64,000 bases of DNA from Phorcus lineatus (lineage: Eukaryota > Mollusca > Gastropoda > Trochida > Trochidae). A program made the position numbers and the translations under genes. Position 1 is the stretch's first letter. Each line of letters opens with the position of its first letter. The DNA lies in contig OV121085.1 of the NCBI GenBank assembly GCA_921293015.1, forward strand, positions 11,743,731 through 11,807,730, in the 5' to 3' direction. Below the pieces are notes generated by a model. It had not been told where the DNA came from. It saw only the letters and a list, made by a program, of their open reading frames with translations, and ran no database searches. Below, in pieces: positions 5,191 through 63,083 of this stretch.

Positions 5191-5198
5191 CACACAAT

Positions 5199-9887: not shown

Positions 9888-11017
9888 GATAATAATAATA
9901 ATAAGAGGATTTATATAGCGCGTTATCCACATCACTCAGGGACATGCTCTAAGCGCATAACATATATACAGCTTATATACAGTAAAGGTAGCGTTCAGAT
10001 ATATCGCTGGAACAGATGTGTTTTGAGTCTGGACTTGAAAGCAGGGATAGATGGAGAGGCTCTAAGATCTTGTGGAAGGGAGTTCCATAGAGTGGCAGCA
10101 GCATACGAGAATGAATTTGCACCAAAGGTTTTCAGCTTATATTTGGGGACCACTAGTAGAAGTTTATCACTGGAGCGGAGGGATCGTTCTGGTTTGTACA
10201 AATGTAACAAGTCCTGTAGATATGCTGGTCCGATGTTGGAAATGGTCTGGTAGACAAGGGATAATACTTTAAATTCAATCCTCTCGCGAATCCGGAGCCA
10301 ATGAAGAGAATTTAAAGCTGGTGTAATGTGAGAGCACAACTTTGTCCTTGTGACTATTCGAGCAGCTTGGTTTTGTATTTTCTGGAGACGCTGTAGCTGT
10401 TCCTCCGAGATACCAAATAGTAAACTATTGCAGTAGTCAAGGCGGGTTAGAACTAGAGTCCGAACGAGGGTGGCTGTTGCTTCCATGGTTAGGATGTTGC
10501 GTATCGAACCAATATTCCTCAAATGATAATAACAGGTTTTACAAATGTGGCTGATGTGACTTTTCATACTTAAATTTGAGTCCAAATAAACACCAAGATT
10601 TCTCACAGAGGTCGAGAAGGGGATTGAAGATTGTCCTATAGAAATGGAGGTGAGCTGACACTTCTGCTGTCGTTGACGCGGAGCAATAATAATGGCTTCT
10701 GTCTTACTGTCGTTTAAGACAAGTTTGTTGCTGGTCATCCAGGACTTTACATCATTGAGACAGGACTCCATTTTGACCTTGGCTTTCTGCTGACTGTCTT
10801 TGCATGGCTTGAAACTGTCCATAAGTTGTGAGTCATCTGCATAAAAATGTCTTCCAATGAGATGCTTGATGATGAGTTGTCCTAGAGGTTTGGTATACAT
10901 GGTGTAGAGTATGGGTCCTAAAACCGAGCCCTGTGGCACTCCACATTCAAGGATATGGACATCTGACAGTGTTCTGTTAATCTGAACGGATTGAGAACGA
11001 TTTTCAAGGTATGATGA
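9888..11017 (-). mobile_element. 5'-truncated CR1/L2-like non-LTR retrotransposon, copy 1
   Basis: The minus strand encodes the C-terminal half of a reverse transcriptase. The frame runs from about 11017 to the stop at 9995. It contains VPQGSVLGPILY, the catalytic FYADD block, and the GVYLDSNLS and AARIVTRTK blocks of CR1/L2/Jockey-type elements. Just past the stop the element ends in gcgctatataaat followed by a TTA/ATT microsatellite tail at 9888-9905, a typical 3' end for this group. The 314 residues shared with copy 2 (14.37-15.88 kb) are identical, so both insertions or their duplication are recent. It is 5'-truncated at about 11017 and is not autonomous. Confidence 0.92.
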
Positions 11018-14100: not shown

Positions 14101-14373
14101 ATCCGACATTGAGCCGTAATCGAAAGATCAAGAGTTTAGAGAGAAAGAGATTTATCTTGACGTATACACATGAGGGTGGGTGAGTAATGGGTGGACGGTT
14201 CTCCAACAATATTTCAGTAATTCAGGTAGATGAAAATCATCAAAAGAGACTGGAGTTACCAGAGGAAAACAAAGAAAAGGTCAAAGTGGAAGGAAGATCG
14301 TTTTATGGAAAGAATCTGGGTTTGTTTTATCTTTGATTTCAATACCTATTATAGATGGTGACAACGTGACAGG

Positions 14374-15880
14374 TGTTTTAAGCGAGCAGTCATCAAACCG
14401 TTGTTGAAGAAACCATCATTAGAACCTGAAAACCTAAGCAACTACCGACCGGTTTCAAACCTCTCTTTTATTTCTAAAATCCTTGAAAAGGTTGTCAAGA
14501 GTCAGATGCTTAGCCATTTACAGAACTTTGATCTCATTGACAAGTATCAATCAGCCTACAGGAGTGCACATAGCACGGAAACAGCTCTCAATGCTGTTCT
14601 GGACAACATCAAGATGTCTGTAGATAACGGAGATATTGCCATGCTTGTACTTTTAGATCTATCATCTGCCTTTGATACCATTGACCATGCTACACTTTTA
14701 TCAAGGCTACAGACTGAGTATGGAATAGACATCACAGTCCTGAAATGGTTTTCATCATACCTTGAAAATCGTTCTCAATCCGTTCAGATTAACAGAACAC
14801 TGTCAGATGTCCATATCCTTGAATGTGGAGTGCCACAGGGCTCGGTTTTAGGACCCATACTCTACACCATGTATACCAAACCTCTAGGACAACTCATCAT
14901 CAAGCATCTCATTGGAAGACATTTTTATGCAGATGACTCACAACTTATGGACAGTTTCAAGCCATGCAAAGACAGTCAGCAGAAAGCCAAGGTCAAAATG
15001 GAGTCCTGTCTCAATGATGTAAAGTCCTGGATGACCAGCAACAAACTTGTCTTAAACGACAGTAAGACAGAAGCCATTATTATTGCTCCGCGTCAACGAC
15101 AGCAGAAGTGTCAGCTCACCTCCATTTCTATAGGACAATCTTCAATCCCCTTCTCGACCTCTGTGAGAAATCTTGGTGTTTATTTGGACTCAAATTTAAG
15201 TATGAAAAGTCACATCAGCCACATTTGTAAAACCTGTTATTATCATTTGAGGAATATTGGTTCGATACGCAACATCCTAACCATGGAAGCAACAGCCACC
15301 CTCGTTCGGACTCTAGTTCTAACCCGCCTTGACTACTGCAATAGTTTACTATTTGGTATCTCGGAGGAACAGCTACAGCGTCTCCAGAAAATACAAAACC
15401 AAGCTGCTCGAATAGTCACAAGGACAAAGTTGTGCTCTCACATTACACCAGCTTTAAATTCTCTTCATTGGCTCCGGATTCGCGAGAGGATTGAATTTAA
15501 AGTATTATCCCTTGTCTACCAGACCATTTCCAACATCGGACCAGCATATCTACAGGACTTGTTACATTTGTACAAACCAGAACGATCCCTCCGCTCCAGT
15601 GATAAACTTCTACTAGTGGTCCCCAAATATAAGCTGAAAACCTTTGGTGCAAATTCATTCTCGTATGCTGCTGCCACTCTATGGAACTCCCTTCCACAAG
15701 ATCTTAGAGCCTCTCCATCTATCCCTGCTTTCAAGTCCAGACTCAAAACACATCTGTTCCAGCGATATATCTGAACGCTACCTTTACTGTATATAAGCTG
15801 TATATATGTTATGCGCTTAGAGCATGTCCCTGAGTGATGTGGATAACGCGCTATATAAATCCTCTTATTATTATTATTAC
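14374..15880 (+). mobile_element. 5'-truncated CR1/L2-like non-LTR retrotransposon, copy 2
   Basis: An open reverse-transcriptase frame runs from about 14374 to the stop at 15774 (over 457 residues). Blocks in order are LSNYRPVSNLSF near residue 12, AMLVLLDLSSAFDTIDH near 80, GVPQGSVLGPILY near 142, FYADD near 173, then the thumb and C-terminal blocks ending LFQRYI. No methionine start or endonuclease domain is present, so it is a 5'-truncated copy. The 3' end is gcgctatataaat followed by (TTA)n at 15860-15880. The C-terminal 314 residues are identical to copy 1 on the opposite strand at 9.9-11.0 kb. The uninterrupted frame indicates recent insertion. Confidence 0.95.
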
Positions 15881-26263: not shown

Positions 26264-26586
26264 GAAGCATGTCTATGACAGTGGTATACCAGCCCGGCAT
26301 GCAGCTGGGCAGGTCGTTTGATCTCAACACCTACACAACAGGCCTGAGTATCTTCAGTGAAGAGTCCACTGCGAAGACTACAAGAACTGAACGACACGTG
26401 AACAACATCAAGTACTCGGTGGTCAAAGGATCCAGCGATGTCAACAGTATTCTCGGCGTATCCGGAGAAATTTCGCTTAAATGTAAGGCAGGAATCCTGG
26501 ACATGGAAGGAATGGGCTCTTATCTCCGTGAAGACAGGTCACAGGACAACACTGTGGAAATCATTGCCAGGGCCCAGGTTGAAACA
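26264..26586 (+). CDS. Copy A exon 1: start of stonustoxin-family MACPF-like domain
   Basis: A 323-bp exon. The acceptor is ttgcag|GAAGC at 26263/26264 and the donor is GAAACA|gtgagt at 26586/26587; both are conserved in copy B. The first in-frame ATG is at 26269, giving 106 residues and a phase-0 end. The segment PGMQLGRSFDLN followed by beta-rich sequence and a GVSGEISLKCKAG block resembles the N-terminus of stonustoxin-family (SNTX) perforin-like proteins. These are membrane-attack-type folds that also occur as non-venom proteins in many animals. The frame continues upstream to an ATG at 26134 with a signal-peptide-like start, but this is not conserved in copy B. The domain call rests on sequence pattern only. 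Confidence 0.72.
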
Positions 26587-28155
26587 GTGAGTCACTTATA
26601 CATGAACACAGTTGTGCCTTCATTAACTTACCGTCAAAAAATAACAAAACGGAGATGTTTTATTGTCACAATGGTGTGAGTGATCCTGAAATGATATATG
26701 CAAGAGACAAATTTTAGGTAACGATACTGTTGTTATTTGATGAAATGTGAAAAGATAACGAATAAGCCCATCGTGTAAATAGCTTTAGTAAAGAAACATT
26801 TTTGTTTGTTTTTTGAATGACTTAATTCAAATCAATGTTTCATGATTAACTTTGGAGACAAATCATAATTGTTAAGAGGACAAACCACCTCCAGAAAGAG
26901 GAATGAAGATGTTGCGTCAAAGCAATTTCGTTGCAGAGACAGACGAATTTGGGGCATAAGAGATAGCGGCGGGACAGGATAGCGTAATGCCAAGGATTAT
27001 GAGACATTTTTTGTTAATAAGAGGCAGACGATTAAGTTAATGATTGGACTAACTGTTGCTGGTACAGTCAAAAGATAATGAAGCAAACAGACTTCGGTTG
27101 GTAAAGGTTAATGGTTCACAAACTATGGTGTAATAAGGATGCAGACACATTTTAATGTTAGGACACAGTATAGTTAAAACAGGGTATACAATTTTTTAAT
27201 TAAAAATTTGATGATAAATCGACTTCGATTTGTAAGGGGACAGGCAAAAGTTAATGGAGGGACAGACTATGGTTGATAAGTGACATGTTAAACTTAATAA
27301 TTGGACAGCGTATGGTTGTTAAGGGGGACATTGACAAATTGTTACGATTGGAGAGAGTATGGCTACTAAGGGGGCACTCAAAAGGTAGTGGTTAGACAGC
27401 CTATGGTTAATAAGGGGGCAGACAAAACTTAATGGTCGGAAATACTATGGCCAATGATGGGGCAGACACAACTTAATAGTTCAACAGACAATGGCAAATA
27501 AGGGGGCTTACAACCTTTAATGAATGAACAATGAATATATGTTGGGACAGAACATGGTTAACAAGGGGGAAGACAAAAGGTATTGGCTTAACAGACCTCG
27601 TGTAATAAAGGGCAAAACAAATGTAAAGGCTAGATAGAATAGGGTAATAAGGGACAGACAAAAGTTAATAATGCAACAGAGTGTGGTTAATCAGGGGAAC
27701 ACAAAAATGAAAGTCTGGATAGACCATTTGAAGAAGGGGTCGCACAAAACTTGATTCGAGAGTAATGGCTAATGAGGGGCACATCAAGTAAATATATGAC
27801 GACTATGGTTAATAAGCTCATATGAGTGCACACACAAGTTTTTTGTTGAAGAGACTTCAGGTAATAAAGGGAAGAACAAATGTTGATGGTTAAACAGACT
27901 ATAGTTAATAAGGATGCTTACACATGTTAATTGTTGGCCAAACTATGGTAAATAAGAGATCAGACAAAAGTTAATGGTTTGGCAGACCATTTACTAGAAG
28001 AAGGCAGACAAAAGTTAGTGGTGGGACATACAATGGCCGACAAAAGGTGAAGTTGGGACAGGTTATGGTGTATAAAGGGAGCAGAGATTTGATAATATGT
28101 AAATTTTAAGGAACATAAAATGCCTAATCAGAGATTTTCTTATCCTCTTCGTCAG
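26587..28155 (+). repeat. Intron 1 of copy A, largely a 42-46 bp minisatellite
   Basis: From about 26880 to 28110 the intron is made of degenerate tandem units of the type acagactatggttaataagg followed by gcagacaaaagttaatgg. The period is about 42-46 bp. The homologous intron of copy B is longer (2453 versus 1569 bp) because of more units. No coding exon is recognised inside. Confidence 0.8.
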
Positions 28156-28929
28156 GTTACAGAATCTATGATTGACGACACTCCACTGGCTGGGTGGAGC
28201 AAGATTGTCAGAGGTACACACTACATCAGGAGCATCATCTATGGTGGCGACTTAATAGTGCGGATCCGTATCAAAGGCAAAAACTCCAAAGACTTCAGCA
28301 AAATAGAAGCAACAGTAAATGCTGATCTGAAAACAAGTGGAGCGGTTGATGCAGGGGTCCATGCAAAATTTAAGAAGATGGAGGATGAAATAAAAAACTC
28401 ATCTGAAGTTGATATTGAGTACTACTCGACAACGGCAAAGGGAGAGATGCCACGTGACATTACAGGAATGTTGCATGCCCTTGATAATTTCAAGAATGAG
28501 GTCATTCAGTTGAACGATGGACGCGGGGTTCCCTGTAAGTGTGAAATACTACCTCTCAGCATGCTTGATGACACATATCCAAGTGTTTTGAAGGACAGCG
28601 CCTTTAACGCTCAGATGGGTACCTTAGAGGCAAAGTTTGATGATGTCATTGGTGGAAAGTCTAAGCTCGATAGGTTTCTGATGGAAGACTGCATGAATCT
28701 TGACCTTGATCCAGAGGAAGAAGACACTGCATCAAGTCTGGAGCAGAGGATTGATGATGCGAGACAGAGTTTGTTCGAAGCAATATCAGAGATAGACGTG
28801 ACTTCCCAGAAAGATGCCATTCCCAAGATTAGCAGTGCCATCAAGTCCTACAAACAACACACAAAGAACAAGCCAGGGGGATTCCGCAGGGAAGTCACCC
28901 AGTTCTTGAAGAAAGTTACTGGAAAGCAG
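28156..28929 (+). CDS. Copy A exon 2: SNTX/MACPF-like core and helical region
   Basis: A 774-bp exon of 258 codons, phase 0 at both ends (cttcgtcag|GTT; AAGCAG|gtgagt). The first ~150 residues continue the MACPF-like fold: GTHYIRSIIYGG near residue 22, a charged strand-rich segment, then DGRGVPCKCEILPLSML near 123, where SNTX-like proteins have a comparable VP...PL strand. The last ~90 residues are predicted helical and charged (SLEQRIDDARQSLFEAISEI), matching the position of the FAT-like helical domain of this family. In known SNTX proteins a thioredoxin-like and a PRY/SPRY domain follow; here the downstream exons encode GTPase-Hint instead. It is 258 residues in copy B and frameshifted in copy C. 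Confidence 0.75.
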
Positions 28930-29029
28930 GTGAGTCCGATTTTTAAAAATAATTTTTGATAACCACTAAAGTTTAGTTGATTTGTTAGTGATATTGTTTG
29001 CATTTGATTTTGAATAGTGAGTGTATGAG

Positions 29030-30511
29030 GCTACCTTCTCGAACCATTATGGAACCTATTTTGAAGAGGAATTTTTATTTCGACTGCAGAGTACCTCTGT
29101 TGAAGACGAAAAGAATGTACTTTTGGAAGATTTACCAGAGGGAAAGACCATAAGCCTCTGTCTCTTGGGAAAAACTGGACACGGCAAGAGTTCAACAGCA
29201 AATGGTATGTATGGAGAAGACTGGTCACCTGCTTCATCTGATGCGGACTCCGGAACGAAGGAATGTCAGATAAAGGTTAAGGATTTCAACACAAGGAAGA
29301 TATGCTTGGTAGACACACCAGGCAGTATGGATACTCGAGATCCTAGAGCAGCTCTGGAAGAGATCTGCACAGCTGTCGCCTTACGAACCGATGGATACGA
29401 TGCATTTCTTATCATGCTTCGATGGAACACAAAAATGACTAAAGAGGAAGTAATGGCAATTAAACTTATAAAGAAGATATTTGGGGAAGACATCCTCATG
29501 AAGTATGCCATTTTTGTTTTCACATATGGGGACACTTTTGAAACTGAACAAAAGGCAAAAGAACACCCCGTCACCTTTGAAGAGTACATTGAGTCACAGA
29601 AAGGTGACATCTCAAAGTATCTGAAGGAAGCTGAAAATCGTTATATTCTGTTCAGCAAATATGCAAGTAAAGTTGTTAAGAGACGAAAAATGATTGATCT
29701 TGTGAAAATTGTCGATGAAATGTCAAAGGAAAATGGGGAAGCCTACACAAACAAGTACTTTGAGAAAGCTAAAGAAACTTGGGAACATCTTGGATGGAAT
29801 GAAATGAAACAATCACTTGACTCTGATGAGACAAAGGCAACTGCCAAAAAGGTTGGAAAAGAAGTGGCAGATGAAGTAACGAAGGATGGGAACTCCTGTT
29901 TCCCTGCAGCAGCTAAAGTCACACTTGAAAACGGGTTTTCTGTTCCTATCACAGAAATTCAAGTTGGACAAAAGGTTTTGGTTTATAAAACTGAAAACAA
30001 GAGACTAACCTTTGAAGAAGTGTATCTTTTCGGTCATGTAGAAGAGGATATTTGGACCCGATTCATTCAGATAACTACAAGGTCACACAGCATCACTCTA
30101 TCCCCAGATCATCACATATTCATTCAATATGGTGAAATGATGAAGACTATTCCTGCTAAAGATGTGGATATTGGGCAGAGTCTTCTGGCAGTTGGCAGGA
30201 GCGGAATTCAACCAGAAGACATCACGGATGTCCAGAGTATAGTTAGCAAGGGTCTGTACGCTCCTTTCACGCTGTCTGGTACCATAGTGGTGGACCGAGT
30301 ACTCGCATCCTGCTACGTGGACTGTGTTCCTCCTCGTCTCGCCCATCCTCTGCTGTGGCCTGTCAGGACTCTCTACTCCATTTCACCCTCTTTTCTAGAA
30401 TGGATCAGTCGATCAAGAGCTGACGGGATCCCAAACTGGATAAGAATCACCCACAAACTTATATTTGGTGAAAAGTATGTTTATATTGAAGGAAGTAGAA
30501 AATTTCATTAA
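29030..30511 (+). CDS. Copy A exon 'a': AIG1-type GTPase fused to Hedgehog-type Hint (Hog) domain
   Basis: A 493-codon terminal exon after a 100-bp intron. The acceptor gtatgag|GCT is the only one in phase 0 and is conserved in all copies. GTPase (exon residues ~44-260): P-loop GKTGHGKSS at 47-55, switch threonine in SGTKEC, DTPG at 95-98, TYGD at 165-168 as G4. Hint domain: nucleophile Cys290 in NSCFPAAAKV (codon 29897-29899), VGQKVLVY, SPDHH at 358-362 in the place of Hedgehog TxxH, then GLYAPFTLSGTIVVD and ASCY (Cys428), as in Hog domains. The tail PVRTLYS...DGIPNWIRI sits where Hedgehog has its adduct/sterol recognition region. Expected role: GTP-controlled membrane-associated switch with self-cleavage. 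No canonical AATAAA follows before exon 'b'. Confidence 0.9.
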   Translation, partial: ATFSNHYGTYFEEEFLFRLQSTSVEDEKNVLLEDLPEGKTISLCLLGKTGHGKSSTANGMYGEDWSPASSDADSGTKECQIKVKDFNTRKICLVDTPGSMDTRDPRAALEEICTAVALRTDGYDAFLIMLRWNTKMTKEEVMAIKLIKKIFGEDILMKYAIFVFTYGDTFETEQKAKEHPVTFEEYIESQKGDISKYLKEAENRYILFSKYASKVVKRRKMIDLVKIVDEMSKENGEAYTNKYFEKAKETWEHLGWNEMKQSLDSDETKATAKKVGKEVADEVTKDGNSCFPAAAKVTLENGFSVPITEIQVGQKVLVYKTENKRLTFEEVYLFGHVEEDIWTRFIQITTRSHSITLSPDHHIFIQYGEMMKTIPAKDVDIGQSLLAVGRSGIQPEDITDVQSIVSKGLYAPFTLSGTIVVDRVLASCYVDCVPPRLAHPLLWPVRTLYSISPSFLEWISRSRADGIPNWIRITHKLIFGEKYVYIEGSRKFH

Positions 30512-30984
30512 AAGCTCTTAATCAGCCATTAGACAGCCATGATATCCTTCCTTGCTACTGTTGCAACAAACTAACAATGGAAAAATTCTGATAATTATTG
30601 ATATCTGCTAATGCTAATTGTCAGCAGATTTGTAGATTATGTATTTGTCTGTAAGAAAATGTGTAAAATAGTTCTTCGACAATATTGGTGTTCCATGTTA
30701 TAAACATGTACCATTATATTTTATTGTACTTATAACAGTATTTAATTTATATGTATACTTGGATAATGGGCCTCAGAAATTAACGCATTCATTATATCTA
30801 GATATTAATTAAACGAAAACAACAACAACTGCACATATTGATTAGTATATTAAGTAGAGTACATTAAGACTTTCATTTGATAGACTTTGTTAGAATATAG
30901 AAGAAAGTTTCAATTTAAAGATAATTCCCATTGTTGCATCTACGATTTTGAATACCAATATAGTCTTATGATGTTTTAATTCAG
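30512..30984 (+). other. Spacer between exons 'a' and 'b' of copy A
   Basis: AT-rich 473 bp, homologous to 46177-46691 in copy B. It contains attaaa variants but no AATAAA. It ends in a pyrimidine-rich ttttaattcag directly before the ATG of exon 'b', a good splice acceptor. Confidence 0.7.
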
Positions 30985-32316
30985 ATGGAAGAAGGACCAG
31001 ACCTCAACATAGTGATGCTCGGAAAGACAGGCCATGGGAAGAGTTCCACTGGAAACACTATCCTTGGAGAGACACAGTTCGAATCCCATGGCTATAATGA
31101 CACTGTCACCTCCAAATGTCAGTCAGCCAGTAGAATCTATGAGAACAGAACAATCACTGTCCTAGATACACCCGACACTGATGTTGATAAAACCTACCTG
31201 CTGAGGAAAGAAATAAATGACTTTTGTTTGCAATTTCCACCTAGCGCCCTCCTCCTGATTCTCAGGTGGAACACGCGCATGACAACAGAAGAAGCATCTA
31301 TAATGAAAATCATTGATGAAATATCATCCCGAACCGATTTGTTAAACAGATTGTTGCTTGTTTTTACTCATGGAGACACATTTAGACCTGATGTTAAGGA
31401 AAGAAAAGAACGAAAAGATTTATTTAGGAAGCACTTGGAGCAGCAAACAGGCGTCCTGAAGGACCTGATGATGAGAGTGGGCAATCGATGTGTTCTTGTC
31501 AACAACATGGAGACGACGACAAGGCGCATTGCAAAAGAGGCTTCCGAAATAGTAGAGGCCATTGATTCGCTGATCATCAATGCAAAAACCTTGTACGTGG
31601 ACGAAACAGCAGAAGAGGGGTTTTCATCAGTCAGCAGCAGCCCTCTTACAGACACAAGCCACAGTGTAGCGATGTACGACCTTAAAGATGAACATGCATC
31701 CGGATGGGAAATGTTGATACCAGGATGTTTTCCTGCGTCTTCGAGAGTTATCCTGGAAGGTGATGAGGTCACTGAGATGGCCGTGGTTCAAGTGGGTCAG
31801 AGGGTTCTGACAAGATCAACAAGTGGTAGATTGGAATACAGCGAGATCTACCTTTTTGGTCATTCTGATAGCTCAGTAGTTAGAGATTTCATCACCATTA
31901 AAACTGAAAACAACATAATCAATGTATCTCCCGACCACCACATCTTCATAAACCAGGATGACATCTACATGACCATTCCTGCATGGCGTGTTCAGAAGGG
32001 GATGAACGTTCTGGTGATGAGAGAAGGTCAACTTGAAGAAGACGCCGTGGTTGATGTGGCTGTGTCGGTTGGTAAGGGTCTGTACGCCCCCTTCACGCTG
32101 TCTGGCACCATAGTGGTGGACGGAGTACTCGCCTCCTGCTACGTGGACTGTGTTCCTCCTCGTCTCGCCCATCCTCTCCTGTGGCCTGTCAGGACTCTAT
32201 ACTCCATCTTTCCCTCCTTCCTTGACTGGATCAGTCGATCAAGAACTGACGGGATCCCAAACTGGATCAAAATGATCATGGAATTTGCCCTGAACAAATC
32301 TACCCAAAAGTATTGA
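30985..32316 (+). CDS. Copy A exon 'b': second AIG1 GTPase-Hog fusion
   Basis: 443 codons, starting with ATG immediately after ttaattcag. It can be an alternative terminal exon, since phase 0 matches the donor at 28929, or a separate gene. GTPase: GKTGHGKSSTGNTILGE at 13-29 is a classic AIG1 P-loop. G3 reads DTPD at 61-64 where the family has DTPG. G4 THGD is at 128-131 and G5 LVNN at 171-174. Hint: GCFP with Cys248, matching the Gly-Cys-Phe junction of Hedgehog; SPDHH at 315-319; GLYAPFTLSGTIVVD at 365-379; ASCY with Cys385; then an adduct-recognition-like tail of about 55 residues. The GTPase is only distantly similar to exon 'a', but the Hint 3' part is nearly identical in DNA. Confidence 0.92.
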   Translation: MEEGPDLNIVMLGKTGHGKSSTGNTILGETQFESHGYNDTVTSKCQSASRIYENRTITVLDTPDTDVDKTYLLRKEINDFCLQFPPSALLLILRWNTRMTTEEASIMKIIDEISSRTDLLNRLLLVFTHGDTFRPDVKERKERKDLFRKHLEQQTGVLKDLMMRVGNRCVLVNNMETTTRRIAKEASEIVEAIDSLIINAKTLYVDETAEEGFSSVSSSPLTDTSHSVAMYDLKDEHASGWEMLIPGCFPASSRVILEGDEVTEMAVVQVGQRVLTRSTSGRLEYSEIYLFGHSDSSVVRDFITIKTENNIINVSPDHHIFINQDDIYMTIPAWRVQKGMNVLVMREGQLEEDAVVDVAVSVGKGLYAPFTLSGTIVVDGVLASCYVDCVPPRLAHPLLWPVRTLYSIFPSFLDWISRSRTDGIPNWIKMIMEFALNKSTQKY

Positions 32317-33600: not shown

Positions 33601-33689
33601 TATTCTTACATTTTCGTATGTTTCATATTGGATATTGGGTGGTTTGAGAGATTAAAGTATTACGTTGTTTATGTTTGATAGTTAGCAAC

Positions 33690-34423
33690 CGATATCCCTT
33701 TCAACATCACGATTTATGTGAACAGCCATCCTCATTCGTTGGCAGAAAAGATTTTTGCCATACCAGGCAACAGCAACAAGAGGCCCCTTCTGAAGAAATC
33801 GGGACTCCCCTAACCGAGTGGCAACCTTTTTCTGTGCTAGGGCATTAGGCATTCTTTTCCTGTTTGATCTTGCGGTTCCGCAGGCAAAGGTACCATTGTC
33901 AAACAACGACTTTATAAAGGTTGTGAAAAAACGGTCGATATATACATGGTGACCCCGACCATGAATCATTCTTGTCAAGTCCATTACAACTCTGTAGGAC
34001 AAGCATTGTTGACTTGTTGTTGTCTTGCCTGTATATAACTTAAACAATAAAAAAAGTGCTGAGTTCTTCAAGGGTTGTAACGAAAAGCGCCTCACTTTCT
34101 GCTGAATATCTGTTCGTTTCTCTTACGATCCCCCAGAACATTAATCTTGGAAAGAACTTCAAAAAGAAATTGATCTCTCTGTTTTCTTTACTAAAGACAA
34201 GTTTCGATCCGCTTGGACGATCGGGGGTATGGATGTGAAATGGTCGTTGCTTTCGCCAATCCTCGTCAAGATTTGCTGCATCTTCCTCATCCTCCCACTC
34301 ATCGGAATCAGAAATTGATGAAATACTGTTATTAGGGTCATCTTGAGCGTAGTATAGATCACCATAATCGACATCATTTGCGAAACCCTCAAAATCTTCG
34401 CTTTCAGAACTTGACAGATCCAT
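33690..34423 (-). pseudogene. piggyBac-type transposase remnant with internal deletion
   Basis: On the minus strand an ATG at 34423 opens an acidic N-terminus (MDLSSSESEDFEGF) typical of piggyBac-derived transposases. REINFFLKFFP...ETNRYS follows, then the frame closes near 34040. An overlapping frame resumes at LYTGK and carries HHVYIDRFFTTF...GTFACGTARSNRKRMP and LVAVAWYGK, the C-terminal half of the DDE_Tnp_1_7 domain. The central catalytic part is missing, so the copy is dead. It lies at the junction between units A and B. Confidence 0.85.
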
Positions 34424-35440
34424 GCCGACAACCCGGAAGTATGTCGTCTGATGTAAACAAACAGCTGTCAAAATACCGCGGTTTAAAAATCATATAGTAA
34501 CAATCGATCTTATCGAAATACTTCTAGCATTTTCTTTTGATGTATATAAAGCCAATTTACTGTAGGCTTCAAAATCTAACTTTAAAAACATTTTCTCCGT
34601 GAAAAACATATTTATAAGATACACATTTGACAAACAACTCAACAGTGTTTTTGTTTTTGTATTAATTTTGTCAAATCAATTTAAAACAATCCGTCAGTCT
34701 GTTTGAACTGAAATAATGGTTATTAAAAATGTTTAATTTACTGATAAGTTTGGAAGAGTTTAGCCGGGAAATGATTTGTTGAATTTTCATTTGCTTCATT
34801 CTAAGTATAAAATCATTTTAAGGCAAATATAACTTTATACAGCATGTTAACTTCCAGGTATAAGGAAAAGTATTTTCCAAAATAGGCCTAATGAATAGAT
34901 TTTATGTAAAAAAAGCAAAAAGCAAAAAGCAACAAAAACCCAAAACATCAAAAACACAGTAACTTGATTAGATTTTAAAGCTCTGTCGATTTTAAACCCA
35001 AGCAAAAACATCGTATTTTTACCGATAGCACATATTCAGGCTGAAAAACCCCCACCAAATACTTTATTCTTTAGAGTTGCCTTTTTTAAAAACACAAAGT
35101 TTTTAATTTTTTTTTATAACTTTCCGAATATGGACAAGCTGCTAAAACGGAAAATAATATCGATTATGCGCAAAAGAGGATTTATTTGAATATATTTTTT
35201 CCTGCTAGTAGCAATAACGTCTTGTCCATGGTCAATGGAGACAAGGACACTGTCTCTGCTGTGGTAGTAGCATTCTAACATACGTAGCTATATAACTTTC
35301 TACTAGTAACAGCTAAAGTTTCCTTATTCGGGTGAGCAGCCGCGGTATAAGTGAACTAATCTTGAAAGCGTCGTTAAACCCCATATCACCTCACCTGACC
35401 TCAAGATGGAGAAGACGAAGAGATTGATAGCTTGACTAGC
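34424..35440. other. Unit A/B junction spacer, no gene recognised
   Basis: AT-rich with short A-rich runs (agcaaaaagcaaaaagc near 34913). No supported feature. Confidence 0.5.
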
Positions 35441-41055: not shown

Positions 41056-41378
41056 GAAGCATGTCTATGTCAGTGGTATACCAACCCGGCATGCAGCTGG
41101 GTAGGTCGTTTGATCTCAAGTCCTACACAACAGGCCGTAGCATTTTCAGTGAAGAGTCCACTGCGAAGACTACAAGAACTGAACGACAAATGAACAACAT
41201 CAAGTACTCGGTGATCAAAGGATCCAGCGATGTCAACAGTATCCTCGGCGTATCCGGAGACATTTCACTAAAGTGCAAAGCAGGCATCCTGAGCATGGAA
41301 GGAATGGGCTCTTATCTCCGTGAAGACCGGTCACAGGACAACACTGTGGAGATCATTGCCAGGGCCCAGGTTGAAACA
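41056..41378 (+). CDS. Copy B exon 1: start of SNTX-family MACPF-like domain
   Basis: Same length (323 bp) and junctions as in copy A (ttgcag|GAAGC; GAAACA|gtgagt). The start ATG is probably at 41061, giving 106 residues. The protein differs from copy A at a handful of positions, mostly conservative, so both seem under constraint. Sequence upstream of the acceptor is not open, which argues that translation begins within this exon or that an unseen upstream exon exists. A second gtgagt-containing phrase lies near 41540, but no exon is apparent there. Confidence 0.72.
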
Positions 41379-43831
41379 GTGAGTCACTTGTAGATGAACA
41401 CGATTCTGCCTTCATTAACTCACCCATCTTCCTACGAAAATCTTAACTATCGCCAGAACTATCCAAGTCAACCCTTGCTATCGACCTAATACCTTTCTGG
41501 CTTTATACCAGCGCCCTCTCTGGCTATTTTCAGGTGGAAACAGTGAGTCTCTTTTATACAAACGCACTTCTGCATTCATTAACTCATCGTCAATAAAACA
41601 CCGAAACGGAGAGGTTTCAATGCTACAATGGTATGAGTCATCCTGAAATAATATTTGCATGAGATAAATAAGTTTACGACACAGATATTATTAGATGAAA
41701 TGTAAAAAGATAACAAAAAAACCCCATTTATAAATAGCGTATTTTAATGAGACATGTTTTACGTTTTTTGAATGATATAATCCTTATAAGAAAAGTGTAA
41801 GATCATATCATATTGATACATCGTTGTTACTCTAAGGAGAGATCATTATTAAGTTTTGTCGACAAATCAGCGTTAAAAGAAGGGAAATGAAGATGAAATC
41901 ATGAATAAGTTTCATGTTCGATGCAGAAACGGACTTTGGTTAACAGGGGATTGGGGCACACCAGATAGCGTCGAGACAGACTAAGGTAATAAAATGCAAA
42001 TGTTAATGATTGGACAGATTATGGTTAATAAGGGGGCAGACGAAAGTTAATGATTGGAGGAACTATTGCTAATGAACGGAACGTCAAAAGATAATGAGAA
42101 AACAAGCTTCGGTCAATAAGGGATGGTAAAAGTTAATGGTTTTACAGACTTTATGATAATAAGGATGCAGACAAAGTTTGATAATTAATTATTATTGTTA
42201 ATCATAAGGTGTACAAAATGTGATGGTTTGATTGGACCGACCTCGGTCAAGGGGACAGGCAAAAGATAATTGTGGGAGAGACTATTGTTAATAAAGTAAC
42301 ATATAAAACTTAATGATTGGACAGGGTATGGTTAACAGACCATGGTTAACAAGGGGGAAGACAAAACTTAATCGTTGGAAAGAGTTTGGCCATCGAGGGG
42401 GCAGACAAAGCTTACTAGTTCAACAACAATGGAAACCAAAGGGGCATACAAACGTTAATAATTGAACAGACAATAACTTATAAGGGGGCATACAAAAGTT
42501 AAATGGTGGGACAGACCATGGTTAACAAGGGGAAAGATAAAATTTATTGGCTTAACAGACCTTGGGTAATAATGGGAATATAAAATGGAAACGCTTGATA
42601 GACTAGGGTAATAAAGGGCAGACAAAAGTTAAACAGGGACAGGGTGTGGTTAATCAGGGGGCAGACGAAAATAAAAGTTTAGATAACCATATACATAAGA
42701 GGTCAGACAAAAATTAATGATTCGAGATCAATGGCTAATGAGGGGTCGGATCAAATAAATTGAGGACGACTATGGTTAGTTAGGGGGTGTACAAATGTTA
42801 AAGGTGCGAGTGAATAGGGTCTTATGAGGGCAGACACAAGTTATTTGTTGCACAGACTTTGGGTAATTAAGGGACAACTGTTATTGGCTAAACAGACTAT
42901 GGTTAATAAGGACGCTTACATATGTTTGTTGTTGGATAGACTATGGTTTATAAGAGAGGGCATACATACATACGAGGACAGACAAACGTTAACTGTGGGA
43001 CGAAATATTGTCATTATGAGGTCAGAAAAAACGTTAACGGTGGGACGAAATATTGTCAGTACGAGGTCAGACAAACGTTAACGGTGGGACGAAATATTGT
43101 CAGACAGACAGACTATATGGTTATTATGAAGGCAGACAAAAGTAAATGTTGGGACAGACCATTGTTTATAAGGGGGGTGACAAAAGTTTTATTATGGGGA
43201 AAACTATGGTTATTTTGGGCCAGACGAAAGGCAATGGTGGGACGGACTATGATTTAAAAGGTGGCATACCAAAGTTAATGGAAAATAAAGGGGCTGACAC
43301 AAGTCTAAGGTTGGACAGACTTGGATAGTAAGGGGGCAGATGATTGGGCAGACCATGGCCAATGGGGGGGGGGGGTAGACAAACTTTAATGGGGGTAGAC
43401 TATGGTTAATAAGGAGGCATAAATACTTAATGATTGGATAGAGTATGGTTTATAACGGAACATACAAAACTTAATGGTTGGAGTAATACGGTGACAGTCC
43501 AAAGACGATTGTTAATAAGGGGGCATACCAAAGTTAATGGTTTAAAAGATTTGGTTTAATAAAGGGGTAGACAAAGGAAAATGGTTGGATAGAGTAGGGT
43601 AATAAGGGGGCAGATAAAACCTAACAGTAGACAAAACTTAACAAGGGCAGACTATGGTTAATAAGGGAGAATACAAAACCTAATGGTTTTACAGACTATA
43701 GTTAATAAGGGGACAGACTGTGGTTAGTTAGGGGAAGGGGGAAGACAATGGACAATGACGGGACAAACTATAAGAAGCAGAAAATCGTTAATCAGCTAAC
43801 TCATCATAAAAGATCTTCTCATCTTCGTCAG
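41379..43831 (+). repeat. Intron 1 of copy B with expanded 42-46 bp minisatellite
   Basis: About 41.9-43.75 kb consists of degenerate units of the type gacagactatggttaataag plus gcagacaaaagttaatgg. A younger 44-bp sub-array (gttaacggtgggacgaaata) is visible at 42.97-43.10 kb. A poly-G run lies at about 43366. The intron is roughly 0.9 kb longer than in copy A. Confidence 0.8.
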
Positions 43832-44605
43832 GTGACGGAATCTATGATCGACGACTCTCCACTGGCTGGGTGGAGCAAAGGGGTTAGAGGTACACACTAC
43901 ATAAGGAGCATCATCTATGGTGGCGACCTGATGGTGCGCATCCGTATCAAAGGAAAAACCTCCAAGGACTTCAGCAAAATAGAAGCAACAGTAAATGCTG
44001 ATCTGAAAACAGGTGGAGCGGTTGATGCTGGAGTCAAGGCAAAATTTAAGAAGATGGAGGATGAAATCAAAGATTCATCTGAAGTTGACATTGAGTACTA
44101 CTCGACTACTGCAAAAGGAGAGATGCCACGTGACATTACAGGAATGTTGAATGCTCTTGATAATTTCAAGAATGAGGTCATTCAGTTGAACGATGGACGC
44201 GGGGTTCCCTGTAAGTGTGAAATACTACCTCTCAGCATGCTTGATGACACATACCCAAGTGTTTTGAAGGACAGCGCCTTTAATGCTCAAATGGGTACTT
44301 TGGAGGATAAGTTTGATGACGTCATTGCTGGGAAGTCAAAGCTGGATAGGTTTCTGATGGAAGACTCCATGGATCTTGATCTTGATCCGGAGGAAGAAGA
44401 CACCGCATCAAGTCTGGAGCAGAGGATTGATGATGCGAGACAGAGTTTGTTCGAAGCAATATCAGAGATAGACGTAACATCCCAGAAAGATGCCATTCCT
44501 AAGATAAGCAATGCCATCAAGTCCTACAAACAACACACAAAGAACAAGCCAGGGGGATTTCGACGGGAAGTCGCCCAGTTCTTGAAGAAAGTTTCTGGAA
44601 AGCAG
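43832..44605 (+). CDS. Copy B exon 2: SNTX/MACPF-like core and helical region
   Basis: 774 bp, 258 codons, phase 0 both sides (cttcgtcag|GTG; AAGCAG|gtgagt). It is nearly identical to copy A exon 2 with the same domain order: strand-rich MACPF-like part, the VPCKCEILPLSML segment, then a helical DDARQSLFEAISEI region. The length is identical to A and no stop is present, so this copy is intact. It lies 98 bp upstream of exon 'a'. Confidence 0.78.
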
Positions 44606-46691: not shown

Positions 46692-48023
46692 ATGGAAGAA
46701 GGACCAGACCTCAACATAGTGATGCTCGGAAAGACAGGCCATGGGAAGAGTTCCACTGGAAACACTATACTTGGAGAGAGACGGTTCGAATCCCATGGCG
46801 TTAATGACACTGTCACCTCCAAATGTCAGTCAGCCAGTAGAATCTATGAGAACAGAACCATAACTGTCCTAGATACACCTGACACTGATGTTGATAAAAC
46901 CTACGTGCTGAGGAAAGAAATTAATGACTTTTGTTTGCAATTTCCACCTAGCGCCCTCCTCCTGATTCTCAGGTGGAACACGCGCATGACAACCGAAGAA
47001 GCATCTATAATGAAAATCATTGATGAAATATCATCCCAAACCGATTTGTTAAACAGGACGTTGCTTGTTTTTACTCATGGAGACACATTTAGACCTAATG
47101 TTAAGGAAAGAAAAGAACGTAGAGATTTATTTAGGAAGCACTTGGAGCAACAAACAGGCGTCCTAAGGAACCTGATGATGCGAGTGGGCAATCGATGTGT
47201 TCTTGTCAACAACATGGAGACGACAACAAGGCGCATTGCAAAAGAGGCTTCCGAAATAGTAGAGGCCATTGATTCGCTTATCGTCAATGCAAAAACCTTG
47301 TACATGGACGAAACAGCAGAAGAGGGGTTTTCATCAGTCAGCAGCAGCCCTCTTACAGACACAAGCCACAGTGTAGCGATGTACGACCTTAAAGATGAAC
47401 ATGCATCCGGATGGGAAATGTTGATACCAGGATGTTTTCCTGCGTCTTCGAAGGTTATTCTGGAGGGTGATGAGGTCATTGAGATGGCCGTGGTTCAAGT
47501 TGGGCAGAGGGTTCTGACAAGATCAACAAGTGGTAGATTGGATTACAGCGAGATCTACCTTTTTGGTCATTCTGATAGCTCAGCAGTTAGAGATTTCATC
47601 ACCATTAAAACTGAAAACAACATAATCAATGTATCTCCAGATCATCACATCTTCATATACCTGGCTGAAACCCATCTAACCATTCCTGCATGGCGTGTTC
47701 AGAAGGGGATGAACGTTCTGGTGATGAGAGAAGGACAACTTAAAGAAGACGCTGTGGTTGATGTGGCTGTGTCGGTTGGTAAGGGTCTGTACGCCCCCTT
47801 CACGCTGTCTGGCACCATAGTCGTGGACGGAGTACTCGCCTCCTGCTACGTGGACTGTGTTCCTCCTCGTCTCGCCCATCCTCTCCTGTGGCCTGTCAGG
47901 ACTCTCTACTCCATCTCTCCCTTATTCCTTGACTGGATCAGTCGATCAAGAACTGACGGGATCCCAAACTGGATCAAAATGTTCATGGAATTTGCCCTGA
48001 AAAAATCTGCCCTCAAGTTTTGA
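46692..48023 (+). CDS. Copy B exon 'b': second AIG1 GTPase-Hog fusion
   Basis: 443 codons, same length as copy A. Motifs: GKTGHGKSSTGNTILGE at 13-29, DTPD at 61-64, THGD at 128-131, LVNN at 171-174, Hint nucleophile in GCFP at 247-250, SPDHH at 315-319, ASCY near 383-386 and the DGIPNWIKM tail. Differences from A cluster in the loop after SPDHH (YLAETHL versus NQDDIYM). An AATAAA at 48356-48361 lies about 330 bp after the stop. Confidence 0.92.
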   Translation: MEEGPDLNIVMLGKTGHGKSSTGNTILGERRFESHGVNDTVTSKCQSASRIYENRTITVLDTPDTDVDKTYVLRKEINDFCLQFPPSALLLILRWNTRMTTEEASIMKIIDEISSQTDLLNRTLLVFTHGDTFRPNVKERKERRDLFRKHLEQQTGVLRNLMMRVGNRCVLVNNMETTTRRIAKEASEIVEAIDSLIVNAKTLYMDETAEEGFSSVSSSPLTDTSHSVAMYDLKDEHASGWEMLIPGCFPASSKVILEGDEVIEMAVVQVGQRVLTRSTSGRLDYSEIYLFGHSDSSAVRDFITIKTENNIINVSPDHHIFIYLAETHLTIPAWRVQKGMNVLVMREGQLKEDAVVDVAVSVGKGLYAPFTLSGTIVVDGVLASCYVDCVPPRLAHPLLWPVRTLYSISPLFLDWISRSRTDGIPNWIKMFMEFALKKSALKF

Positions 48024-58623: not shown

Positions 58624-59946
58624 TCAATACTTGAGGGTACATTTCTTCAAGGCAAATTCCATGAACATTTTAATCCAGTCTGGGATCCCGTCAGTTCTTG
58701 ATCGACTGATCCATTCCAGGACGGAGGGCGAGATGTAGTAGAGAGTCCTAACAGGCCACAGGAGGGGATGGGCGAGACGAGGAGGAACACAGTCCACGTA
58801 GCAGGAGGCGAGTACTCCGTCCACCACTATGGTGCCAGACAGAGTGAAGGGGGCGTACAGACCCTTGCCAACAGACACAGCCACATCAACCACAGCGTCT
58901 TCTTCAAGTTGACCGTTTCTCATCACCAGAACAGTAATCCCCTTCTGCACACGCCGTGCAGGAATGGTCATGTAGATGTCATTCTGGTTTATGAAGATGT
59001 GATGATCTGGAGATACATTGATTATGTTGTTTTCGGTTTTAATGGTGATGAAATCTCTAACTGCTGAGCTATCACAATGACCCAAAGGGTAGATCTCGCT
59101 GTATTCCAATCTACCACTAGTTGATCTTGTCAGAACCCTCTGACCCACTTGAACCATAGCCACTTCAATGATCTCATCACCTTCCAGAATAACCCTCGAA
59201 GACGCAGGAAAACATCCTGGTATCCATTCCCATCTGGATGCATGTTTGTTTTTAAGTTCGTACATCGCTACACTGTGTCTTGTGTCTGTAAGAGGGCTGC
59301 TGCTGCCTGATGAAGACCCCTCTTCTGCTGTTTCGTACCGGGTTTCTGCTTTAACGATCATCGAATCAATGACACCAATTATTTCTGAAGCCTCTTTTGC
59401 AATGCGAATTGTCGTCGTCTCCATGTTGTTGACAAGAACGCATCGAGTGCCCACTCGCATCATCAGGTCCTTCAGGACGCCTGTTTGCTGCTCCAAGTGC
59501 TTCCTAAATAAATCTCTTCGTTCTTTTCTTACCTTAACATCAGGTCTAAATGTGTCTCCATGAGTAAAAACAAGCACTGTTCTGTTTAATAAATCCGTTT
59601 TGGGTGATATTTCATCAACGATTTTCATTATAGATGCTTCTTCCGTTGTCATGCGCGTGTTCCACCTGAGAATCAGAAGAAGGGCGCTAGGTGGAAATTG
59701 CAAACAAAAGTCATTAATTTCTTTCCTCAGCACGTAGGTTCTATCAACATCAGTGTCGGGTGTATCTAAGACAGTGATGGTTCTGTTCTCATATATTTTA
59801 CTGGCTGACTGACATTTGGAGGTGACTGTGTCATTAAAGTCATGGGATTCGAACCGTCTCTCTCCAAGGATAGTGTTTCCAGTGGAACTCTTCCCATGGC
59901 CTGTCTTTCCATGCATTACGATGTTGAGGTCTGGTCCTTCTTCCAT
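58624..59946 (-). CDS. Copy C exon 'b': AIG1 GTPase-Hog fusion
   Basis: 440 codons, ATG directly after ttaattcag as in A and B. It keeps GKTGHGKSSTGNTILGE (with His instead of Leu before Gly of the P-loop), DTPD at 61-64, THGD, LVNN, GCFP with Cys245, SPDHH, GLYAPFTLSGTIVVDG, ASCY and the tail DGIPDWIKM. The linker before the Hint domain is three residues shorter. Some positions otherwise conserved have changed (YPLGHC for YLFGHS; PARRVQKGI). The frame is intact even though exon 2 of this copy is broken, so it may be expressed independently or be a recent pseudogene. Confidence 0.88.
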   Translation of the reverse strand: MEEGPDLNIVMHGKTGHGKSSTGNTILGERRFESHDFNDTVTSKCQSASKIYENRTITVLDTPDTDVDRTYVLRKEINDFCLQFPPSALLLILRWNTRMTTEEASIMKIVDEISPKTDLLNRTVLVFTHGDTFRPDVKVRKERRDLFRKHLEQQTGVLKDLMMRVGTRCVLVNNMETTTIRIAKEASEIIGVIDSMIVKAETRYETAEEGSSSGSSSPLTDTRHSVAMYELKNKHASRWEWIPGCFPASSRVILEGDEIIEVAMVQVGQRVLTRSTSGRLEYSEIYPLGHCDSSAVRDFITIKTENNIINVSPDHHIFINQNDIYMTIPARRVQKGITVLVMRNGQLEEDAVVDVAVSVGKGLYAPFTLSGTIVVDGVLASCYVDCVPPRLAHPLLWPVRTLYYISPSVLEWISRSRTDGIPDWIKMFMEFALKKCTLKY

Positions 59947-60816: not shown

Positions 60817-62271
60817 TTAAACATACTTTCCCCCAAATGCAAGCCCATGGACGATTCTGATCCAGTTTGGGATCCCGTCAGTTCTGGCTCGACTGATCCA
60901 TCCAAGGAAGGAGGGAGTTATAGAGTAGAGAGTCCTGACAGGCCACAGCAGAGGATGAGCGAGATGAGGAGAAACACAGTCAACGTAGCAGGAAGCGAGT
61001 ACTCCGTCCACCACTATGGTGCCAGACAGCGTGAAGGGGGCGTACAGACCCTTGCTAACTATACTTTGGACATCAATGATATCTTCTGGTTGAATTCCGT
61101 TCCTGCAAACTGCTAGAAGACTCTGCCCAATATCCACATCTTTAGCAGGAATAGTCTTCATCATGTCACCATATTGAATGAAAATGTGATGATCTGGGGA
61201 TAGAGTGATTCTGTTCGACCTTGTAGTTATCTGAATGAATCGGGTCCAAGTATTCTCTTCTACATGACCGAAAAGATACACTTCTTCAAACGTTGGTCTT
61301 TTGTTTTCACTTTTGTAAACCAAAACCTTTTGTCCAACTTGAATATCAGCGATAGGTACAGAAGAACCGTTCTCAAGCAAAACATTAGCTGTTGCAGGGA
61401 AACAGGAGTTCCCATCCTTTTTTACTTCACCTGCCACCTCTTTTCCAACCTTTTTCGCAGTTTCATTTGTCTCATCCCAGTCAAGAGATTGCTTCATTTC
61501 ATCCCATCCAAGATATTTCCATGTTTTCTTAGCTTTTTCAAAGTAAATGTTTGTGTAGGCTTCTCCATTTTTCCTTGACATTTCATCAACTATTTTCACA
61601 AGATCAATCATTTTTCGTCTCTTGACAACTTTACTTGCATATTTGCTGAACAGAATATAACGATTTTCAGCCTCCCTAAGATACTTTGCGATGTCGCCTT
61701 TCTGTGACTCAATGTACTCTTCAAAGGTAACTGGATGCTTTTTTGCCTTTTGCTCCGTTTCAAAAGTGTCCCCATACGTGAAAACAAAAATGGCATACTT
61801 TATGAGGATATATTCCCCAAATATCTTCTTTATAAGTTTAATTGCCAGCACCTCCTCTTCAGTCATCTTTGTATTCCATCGAATCATGATAAGAAATGCA
61901 TCGTACCCATCGGTTCTTAAGGCAACAGCTGTGCAGATCTCTGTCAGAGCCATTTCAGGGTCACGAGTATCCATACTGCCTGGTGTGTCTACCAAGCATA
62001 TCTTCCTTGTGGTGAAATCCTTGACCTTTATCTGACATTCCTTTGTACCAGATTCCGCATCAGATGAAGTTGGTGACCAGTCTTCTCCATACAAACCATT
62101 TGCTGTTGAACTCTTTCCATGACCAGTTTTTCCCAAGAGACAGAGGCTTAGTTTCTTTCCTTCCGGTAAATCTTCCAAAGGTACATTCTTATCGTCTTCC
62201 AAAGAGGTACTCTGCAGTCGAAATAAAAAATCCTCTTCAAAATAGTTTCCATTATGGTTGATGAAGATAAA
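60817..62271 (-). CDS. Copy C exon 'a': AIG1 GTPase-Hog fusion
   Basis: 484 codons from acceptor gcatgag|TTT. Motifs are kept: GKTGHGKSS, DTPG, TYGD, Hint Cys in NSCFPATANV, SPDHH, GLYAPFTLSGTIVVDG, ASCY. The tail reads VSPHLAHPLLWPV...DGIPNWIRI and stops slightly earlier than in A and B. It is more diverged than A is from B, for instance TEEEVL for TKEEVM, and GEYILIKY for GEDILMKY. The frame is fully open. Confidence 0.88.
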   Translation of the reverse strand, partial: FIFINHNGNYFEEDFLFRLQSTSLEDDKNVPLEDLPEGKKLSLCLLGKTGHGKSSTANGLYGEDWSPTSSDAESGTKECQIKVKDFTTRKICLVDTPGSMDTRDPEMALTEICTAVALRTDGYDAFLIMIRWNTKMTEEEVLAIKLIKKIFGEYILIKYAIFVFTYGDTFETEQKAKKHPVTFEEYIESQKGDIAKYLREAENRYILFSKYASKVVKRRKMIDLVKIVDEMSRKNGEAYTNIYFEKAKKTWKYLGWDEMKQSLDWDETNETAKKVGKEVAGEVKKDGNSCFPATANVLLENGSSVPIADIQVGQKVLVYKSENKRPTFEEVYLFGHVEENTWTRFIQITTRSNRITLSPDHHIFIQYGDMMKTIPAKDVDIGQSLLAVCRNGIQPEDIIDVQSIVSKGLYAPFTLSGTIVVDGVLASCYVDCVSPHLAHPLLWPVRTLYSITPSFLGWISRARTDGIPNWIRIVHGLAFGGKYV

Positions 62272-62383: not shown

Positions 62384-63083
62384 CTGCTTTCCATTAACTT
62401 TCTTCAAGAACTGGATGATTTCCCGTTTGAATCCCCCTAGCTTGTTCTTTGTGTCTTTTTTGTAAGACTTGATGGCATCGTTTATCTTTCGAATGGCATC
62501 TATCTGGGATGTTATGTTTATCTCTGATATTGCTGCGCACAAACTCTGTCTCACATCATCAATCCTCTGCTCCAGACTTAATGCAGTGTCTTCATCCTCC
62601 TGATCAAGATCAAGATGCATGCAGTCTTCCTTCAGAAACCTATCCAGCTTTGACTTCGCAACATTGACATCATCAAACTTATCCTCCAAAGTACCAATCA
62701 GAGCATTAAAGCCGCTGTCCTTCAAGATACTTGGGTATGTGTCATCAAGCATGCTGAGAGGTAGTATTTCAACCTTATAGGGAACCCCGCGTCCATCGTT
62801 CAACTGAATGACCTCATTCTTGAAATTATCAAGAGCATGCAACATTCCTGTAATGTCACGTGGCATCTCTCCCTTTGCCGTTGTCGAGTAGTACTCAATG
62901 TCAACTTCAGATGAGTTTTTGATTTCATCCTCCATCTTCCTAAATTTTGCATGGACCCCAGCATCAACCGCGAATCCGCCCGATCAAGTCGCCACCATAG
63001 ATGATGCTCCTGATGTAGTGTGTACCTCTAACCCCTTTTCTCCACCCAGCCAGTGGAGTGTCATCATTCATAGATTCCGTCAC
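62384..63083 (-). pseudogene. Copy C exon 2: frameshifted SNTX/MACPF-like exon
   Basis: Boundaries match A and B (ttggtcag|GTG; AAGCAG|gtaatt), but the exon is 700 bp instead of 774. Relative to copy A, 74 bp are missing at about 62972, between cggattcg and cggttgatgc. This shifts the frame and produces a TGA within a few codons. Downstream, the frame equivalent to A is open from 62935. The N-terminal MACPF-like module of copy C is therefore broken unless the deletion is an assembly error. Confidence 0.85.

Follow-up and report, generated by a model that had tools for sequence, protein, structure and literature searches.

In the trochid gastropod Phorcus lineatus, a 64,000-nt stretch of contig OV121085.1 (assembly GCA_921293015.1), hereafter the window, carries a tandem-repeated gene of mollusc type whose predicted product starts with an SNTX-type MACPF and helical region, continues into a GIMAP-like GTPase and ends in a Hint/Hog domain. 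The term mollusc type was assigned because abalones (Haliotis) are the nearest relatives found. The window holds three copies of this gene, at 26.3-32.3 kb (+), 41.1-48.0 kb (+) and 58.6-63.1 kb (-). Within the first of these, the region 26264-32316 consists of four coding exons, the last two of which (a and b) very probably act as alternative last exons on a single N-terminus. The layout of copy 1, in window positions, is as follows.

26264..26586 (+): exon 1, first part of the SNTX/MACPF-like region; acceptor ttgcag, start codon 26269, donor ACA/gtgagt
28156..28929 (+): exon 2, remaining SNTX/MACPF-like and helical region; phase-0 end, sub-threshold Pfam MACPF match, stonustoxin profile match
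29090..30511 (+): exon a, AIG1 GTPase, Hint and tail, assigned by Pfam, the Hint alignment and the acceptor ctgcag
~29156-29785 (+): AIG1 of exon a
~29888-30439 (+): Hint of exon a, with the junction Cys codon at 29897-29899 and the general-base His at 30035-30037
30985..32316 (+): exon b, second AIG1 and Hint cassette, assigned by Pfam, the acceptor attcag directly before an ATG, and the AIG1 tree, where it joins abalone isoform X2
~31003-31599 (+): AIG1 of exon b
~31720-32256 (+): Hint of exon b, with the junction Cys codon at 31726-31728

The acceptor before 26264, the exon 1 donor and the exon 2 acceptor (gtcag) are conserved in all three copies. Exon 2 ends in phase 0, with CAG/gtgagt in copies 1 and 2 and CAG/gtaatt in copy 3, and exons a and b both start in phase 0 after their respective acceptors; each is stop-terminated and has a poly-A signal behind it in 3/3 copies. 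A first-pass annotation, made from the letters of the sequence, had proposed exons 1 and 2 as genuine phase-0 exons, and this is borne out by the conserved splice sites, the homologues in copy 2, the ratios of nonsynonymous to synonymous substitution (dN/dS) given below and an alignment with abalone proteins that runs unbroken across both exons. The possibility that they are chance frames was rejected on the last two grounds. The same annotation had the gene begin at 26264; this is the base after the conserved acceptor, and the likely start codon lies at 26269. As no signal peptide follows this codon, the protein is probably cytosolic. An upstream signal peptide, for which an open frame from 26134 offers a possible hydrophobic start, was considered and rejected, since copies 2 and 3 carry stops roughly 14 codons before the Met; the conserved acceptor, together with abalone proteins that begin at the aligned Met, further argues against it.

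Pfam searches place a complete AIG1 GTPase and a Hint domain in each of the two last exons. The exon a ORF (29021-30511) scores 124.8 bits for AIG1 (E 4e-36) and 123.1 bits for Hint (E 1.6e-35), and the exon b ORF (30964-32316) scores 115.5 bits (E 2.8e-33) and 117.2 bits (E 9.8e-34), respectively, all far above the curated cut-offs (AIG1, 27 bits; Hint, 29.7 bits). Thus, the proposal that single exons carry both domains holds, and the Hint motifs quoted in its favor are present.

The SNTX/MACPF label called for a profile. Taken alone, exon 2 reaches 19.1 bits against Pfam MACPF, which is below the curated cut-off of 21.5 bits, and in the Protein Data Bank (PDB) it finds stonustoxin beta only at E 0.24. 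The abalone N-terminus gives 20.6 bits for MACPF, where 4/8 rows reach E 0.01 or better, and the abalone protein P0001 by itself finds stonustoxin at E 7.7e-6. A profile built from the window and abalone N-termini matches stonustoxin beta at 1.5e-8 (positions 23-318) and stonustoxin alpha at 3.9e-6; these are the best two of 7 hits, and the next PDB hit stands at 0.0076. The SNTX label is therefore right by virtue of the profile with abalone rows, exon 2 alone being too divergent. The profile match takes in MACPF as well as the helical part that comes after it in SNTX. A GTHYxxxxxxGG motif is conserved in the window and abalone rows, and the exon 2 stretch GTHYIRSIIYGG is close to the MACPF signature. 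No thioredoxin-like or SPRY match was obtained up to E 0.1 in five abalone relatives, nor does either occur in the Pfam results of the window exons, in agreement with the earlier view that the N-terminus is of SNTX type and that the domains usually following it are absent. A second MACPF-Hint fusion was seen in P0014, a 611-aa protein from a 14.7-kb metagenome contig of unknown organism, in which MACPF (2.8e-11) directly precedes a Hint (5e-35) with a general-base His.

The other two copies comprise the following exons.

41061..41378 (+): copy 2 exon 1, coding part; 91.6% identity to copy 1 over 107 aa (tblastn)
43832..44605 (+): copy 2 exon 2; 94.2% identity to copy 1 over 258 aa (tblastn), also returned by the search of the species' own genome
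44764..46176 (+): copy 2 exon a, from ORF and acceptor; 93.8% aa identity to copy 1
46692..48023 (+): copy 2 exon b, from ORF and acceptor; 93.0% aa identity to copy 1
62384..63083 (-): copy 3 exon 2, disrupted; 74 nt are absent relative to copies 1 and 2 and the frame is lost
60817..62211 (-): copy 3 exon a, open, from ORF and acceptor
58624..59946 (-): copy 3 exon b, open, from ORF and acceptor

Exon 1 of copy 3 is located beyond the window, in locus L019. Between copies 1 and 2, dN/dS is 0.19 for exon 1, 0.10 for exon 2, 0.19 for exon a and 0.35 for exon b, and comparisons involving exon 2 of copy 3 give 0.45-0.75. By these values, copies 1 and 2 evolve under purifying selection, and both are intact. 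In intron 1 of both, degenerate repeats of approximately 44 bp were observed (27354-27507, 42971-43103 and 43396-43482).

When the whole genome (958 Mb, 74 contigs; the window is C9:11743731-11807730, plus strand) was searched with exon 2, only the three window copies were returned, in four matches, with copy 3 as two pieces. Likewise, the N-terminus profile gave no further match at E<2 when run on open frames from the window and from loci L013-L022, a scope that took in some 10 kb on the upstream side of L013, L016 and L017 and, for L015, the 4 kb within the locus. By these searches, the SNTX-type N-terminus is found in this genome only in the three window copies, and AIG1-Hint exons elsewhere are without it. 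The Hint model returned at least 14 matches, counts here being lower bounds because only the best candidates were scored: six in the window, one in a true Hedgehog (C17, 223.9 bits), at least five in AIG1-Hint loci (three near C9:35.9 Mb and two near C16:48.0 Mb) and at least two exons on C37. Two of the AIG1-Hint copies near C9:35.9 Mb are damaged; in L014 (2866-6871) the GTPase is split by approximately 3 kb of other sequence, and in L015 (3961-5331) a TGA lies between GTPase and Hint. On C37 (5.41 Mb), L018 (2850-5353) is a multi-exon Hint gene in which AIG1 was not seen and whose general-base position is occupied by Lys (FLKR).

How exons a and b relate to each other is best read from the abalones. 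Relatives were collected as 24 proteins, then three, then four (one of them new, P0025 of Haliotis rubra); the collection was word-filtered and does not imply absence from other molluscs. In five Haliotis proteins (712-814 aa), a single chain comprises the SNTX-like region, AIG1 and Hint; in P0004 as annotated, the N-terminus and the Hint each lack their start. In H. cracherodii, isoforms X1 (P0001) and X2 (P0005), both database predictions, are identical over 359 residues and then continue into different cassettes. An AIG1 tree, from which P0017 was left out, unites the window a exons with P0001 and P0002 (100/99) and the window b exons with P0005 (100/100). Because the abalone isoforms share 359 aa and then end in either an a-type or a b-type cassette, exons a and b probably serve as alternative last exons; as complete paralogous cassettes, each with its own stop and poly-A signal, they look like alternative ends rather than successive modules. 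Thus, the module order given in the first-pass annotation (SNTX-like region, AIG1, Hint) stands and is found whole in the abalone chains. On the simplest reading of these sequences, the arrangement of one N-terminus with two last exons would predate the split from abalones. In H. rubra, P0025 is an SNTX-like N-terminus predicted alone (362 aa, without GTPase or Hint), either real or a cut gene model. IMG/VR scans with P0009 and P0014, which addressed a viral origin, returned no relative.

The two cassettes have not diverged evenly. Exons a and b share 42% aa identity overall (184/433 aa), whereas from GLYAPF onward 60 of 65 residues agree. Their nucleotide identity rises from 32-58% to 89-94% over roughly the last 65-85 codons, and dS is 0.27 over the last 65 codons vs 1.54 overall. 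This pattern at the Hint end and tail fits gene conversion, which would also account for the full Hint tree (L015 left out), where window a joins window b (87/95), contrary to the AIG1 tree. A Hint tree trimmed of the near-identical tract, with P0014, P0022 and P0024 left out, did not resolve the grouping (67/49).

In the GTPase itself, G1 (GKTGHGKS) is present in 6/6 window cassettes, whereas G3 (DTPG) is present in the three window a cassettes and lost in the three b cassettes. The best PDB hit for abalone P0001 is GIMAP7 (3ZJC, 3.3e-22), and in this alignment a Lys of P0001 stands opposite an Arg of GIMAP7, presumably Arg103 with its trans-arginine role. All five a-type cassettes (three window, P0001 and P0002) combine DTPG with Lys at this position; all four b-type cassettes (three window and P0005) retain the Arg, but their G3 glycine is lost, the motif reading DTPDT or, in abalone, DTPHV. 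Both the G3 glycine and the Arg are found in the eight other AIG1-Hint rows (P0003, P0004, L013, L015, L016, L017, P0009 and P0010); L014, whose GTPase is interrupted, P0021, which has no P-loop pattern, P0006 and P0008 were not part of this alignment. The reciprocal loss suggests a division of labor between the a and b isoforms, as in an a/b pair.

The Hint domains retain the junction Cys, SxxH and SCY in 6/6 window cassettes. A tail of roughly 50-65 residues occupies the place of the Hedgehog sterol recognition region (SRR) and is conserved in the window and abalone rows. At the general-base position, Asp is found in 3/3 Hedgehogs, this genome's own included, and His in all 21 other aligned Hints (six from the window, five from other loci of this genome, five from Haliotis and five from metagenomes or transcriptomes; P0004 was not in the alignment). 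Inspection by eye of the C37 Hint exon, with FLKR where Hedgehog has FLDR, brings the count to 21/22 non-Hedgehog Hints. By phmmer, the His of exon a falls opposite Asp303 in 1AT0 and opposite the engineered His in 6TYY. Asp303 has been termed Hh-specific (PMC4695875). The engineered D303H enzyme is described as keeping structure and activity, as using coprostanol (>200-fold) and epicoprostanol (>300-fold) better and as still transferring cholesterol, whereas D303A enzymes cleave with dithiothreitol (DTT) but are unable to attach cholesterol (PMC9163320). The non-Hedgehog Hints with this His thus have, naturally, the base that was engineered into D303H. No text naming a natural His at the general base was found in the literature searched, and PMC2362128 contains none of the terms histidine, D303 or catalytic. 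Neither the window exons nor the five abalone proteins of full order matched the Hedgehog signaling domain (PF01085).

From sequence we infer splicing in this species, self-cleavage, a lipid, isoform pairing, membrane action and an immune role, and a tentative mechanism, to which we give somewhat less than an even chance, would join them as follows. Two alternative last exons would each provide the same N-terminus with a full GTPase-Hint cassette. The Hint junction cysteine would first engage the end of the GTPase part as a thioester; the His that replaces Hedgehog Asp303 would then activate a sterol, or an alcohol like it, which the SRR-like tail at the C-terminus holds. In this way, the MACPF-GTPase part would come free of the Hint and bear a lipid at its C-terminus. 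Such a lipid could play the role of the C-terminal transmembrane segment of GIMAP1/3/5, and the GTPase would govern assembly on the membrane. GIMAP7 promotes GTP hydrolysis by GIMAP2, and GIMAP1/3/5 bear C-terminal anchors (PMC8201404); isoform a (intact G3, Lys) and isoform b (Arg, G3 Gly lost) may form a GTP-hydrolyzing pair in the manner of GIMAP2 and GIMAP7. The fullest version, in which two self-clipping precursors capped with a sterol or other lipid by a natural His base yield an obligate hydrolyzing pair that drives MACPF assembly as a GTP-gated intracellular immune effector, we consider unlikely.

Several observations weigh against the arrangement of one N-terminus with two ends or against the mechanism built on it. 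As regards the arrangement, the b-type row P0005 forms a long branch in the AIG1 tree, the Hint trees show no a/b grouping with abalone, and splicing is read from sequence here, with exon b opening on its own ATG. An ATG directly after the acceptor is what an intron in a 5' untranslated region would produce, and exon b (perhaps also a) could thus be an independent AIG1-Hint gene behind an SNTX-like gene, with one cassette or none joined to exons 1 and 2. The other AIG1-Hint loci of this genome, near which no SNTX-like exon was detected, and the solitary N-terminus of H. rubra P0025 speak in the same direction. Set against these are the predicted abalone isoforms X1 and X2, which join one N-terminus to either cassette, and the a/b pair found behind exon 2 in all three copies, and we regard separate genes as quite improbable.

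As regards the mechanism, the general base is His instead of Asp, the Hedgehog HWY tail motif is changed to PxW, and the position preceding the junction Cys, where Hedgehog has Gly, is taken by Ser in exon a, by Gly in exon b and by Glu, Ser, Ala or Gly in abalone. Because of the His, cholesterol transfer cannot simply be carried over; because no signal peptide is present, no ER (endoplasmic reticulum) route is at hand and the Hedgehog route does not apply as it stands. Of the self-cleaving lipidation device proposed at first, the junction Cys, SxxH and SCY are borne out; Hint autoprocessing is chemically plausible from the sequence, with the adduct uncertain. The same substitutions would suit a Hint that merely cleaves itself off by hydrolysis or a small thiol, a timed release switch that adds no lipid, much as D303A cleaves with DTT without attaching cholesterol; the activity of D303H on cholesterol and the preservation of the SRR-like tail speak for lipid transfer, and the release switch seems rather unlikely to us. 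In the GTPase, Arg is replaced by Lys or Met in 3/7 aligned fish GIMAPs (P0012, P0013 and P0017), so that Lys at the arginine position may mean little. Finally, the SNTX/MACPF-like module could be a scaffold that forms no pores, and the protein a membrane GTPase of GIMAP type whose N-terminus is unusual. This has close to an even chance and is compatible with the lipid-capped, GTPase-controlled assembly preferred here; it would suit the missing signal peptide and the weak MACPF likeness of exon 2 alone, and intracellular proteins also carry SNTX-like modules. The conservation of GTHYxxxxxxGG, near the MACPF signature, points the other way.

Hedgehogs have been called singular in their ligation to cholesterol (PMC7242414). 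A full Hog domain on a non-secreted GTPase, with a natural counterpart of D303H, would offer a direct test of lipid capping in other animal proteins. If the mechanism is true, GIMAP-like GTPases gain a membrane anchor made by autoprocessing, and the exon swap with reciprocal catalytic loss would be a clean case of the halves of a GTPase pair arising from one gene.

Elsewhere in the window, further features were observed.

5192-9072: 22.6 copies of a 172-bp unit in tandem
9995-11059 (-) and 14362-15774 (+): two reverse transcriptase ORFs (RVT_1) on opposite strands, apparently near-identical over their common part
33682-34489 (-): DDE_Tnp_1_7 transposase pieces shortly after copy 1, spread over two frames that overlap
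54117-54173 (+): marginal tRNA match (30.5 bits vs 29) adjoining a 24-bp tandem repeat

The combination of AIG1 with Hint is itself already known. Such proteins have been reported from coral (four sequences; PMC3723955), from Biomphalaria (PMC7053062), from amphioxus, where recurrent architectures with an N-terminal CARD and a C-terminal HINT were called unique to amphioxus among animals (PMC12373286), and from a fungus as GmGIN1 (PMC2362128). They share with the Phorcus gene an AIG1 GTPase followed by a C-terminal Hint, but the portions of these sources at hand mention no SNTX/MACPF N-terminus (a CARD in amphioxus) and no alternative GTPase-Hint last exons. In the literature searched, no description was found that joins SNTX or MACPF with AIG1-Hint, nor of the a/b exon swap. 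Thus, the earlier statement that no protein of this order has been described survives for the SNTX fusion, which together with the exon swap is apparently undescribed, and must be narrowed for AIG1-Hint. From the stonustoxin family, which has the same MACPF-like and helical N-terminal region by profile, the gene differs in that a GTPase and a Hint stand where the thioredoxin-like and PRY/SPRY ends would be. With the Hedgehog Hog domain, it has in common the junction Cys, S/TxxH, SCY and a tail in the sterol-recognition place; it differs in the His for Asp303, the changed HWY, and the lack of a Hedgehog signaling domain and a signal peptide. As in GIMAP2 and GIMAP7, the fold is that of AIG1 and unlike partners could restore hydrolysis; here, the partners would stem from one gene through alternative last exons, and the anchor from autoprocessing.

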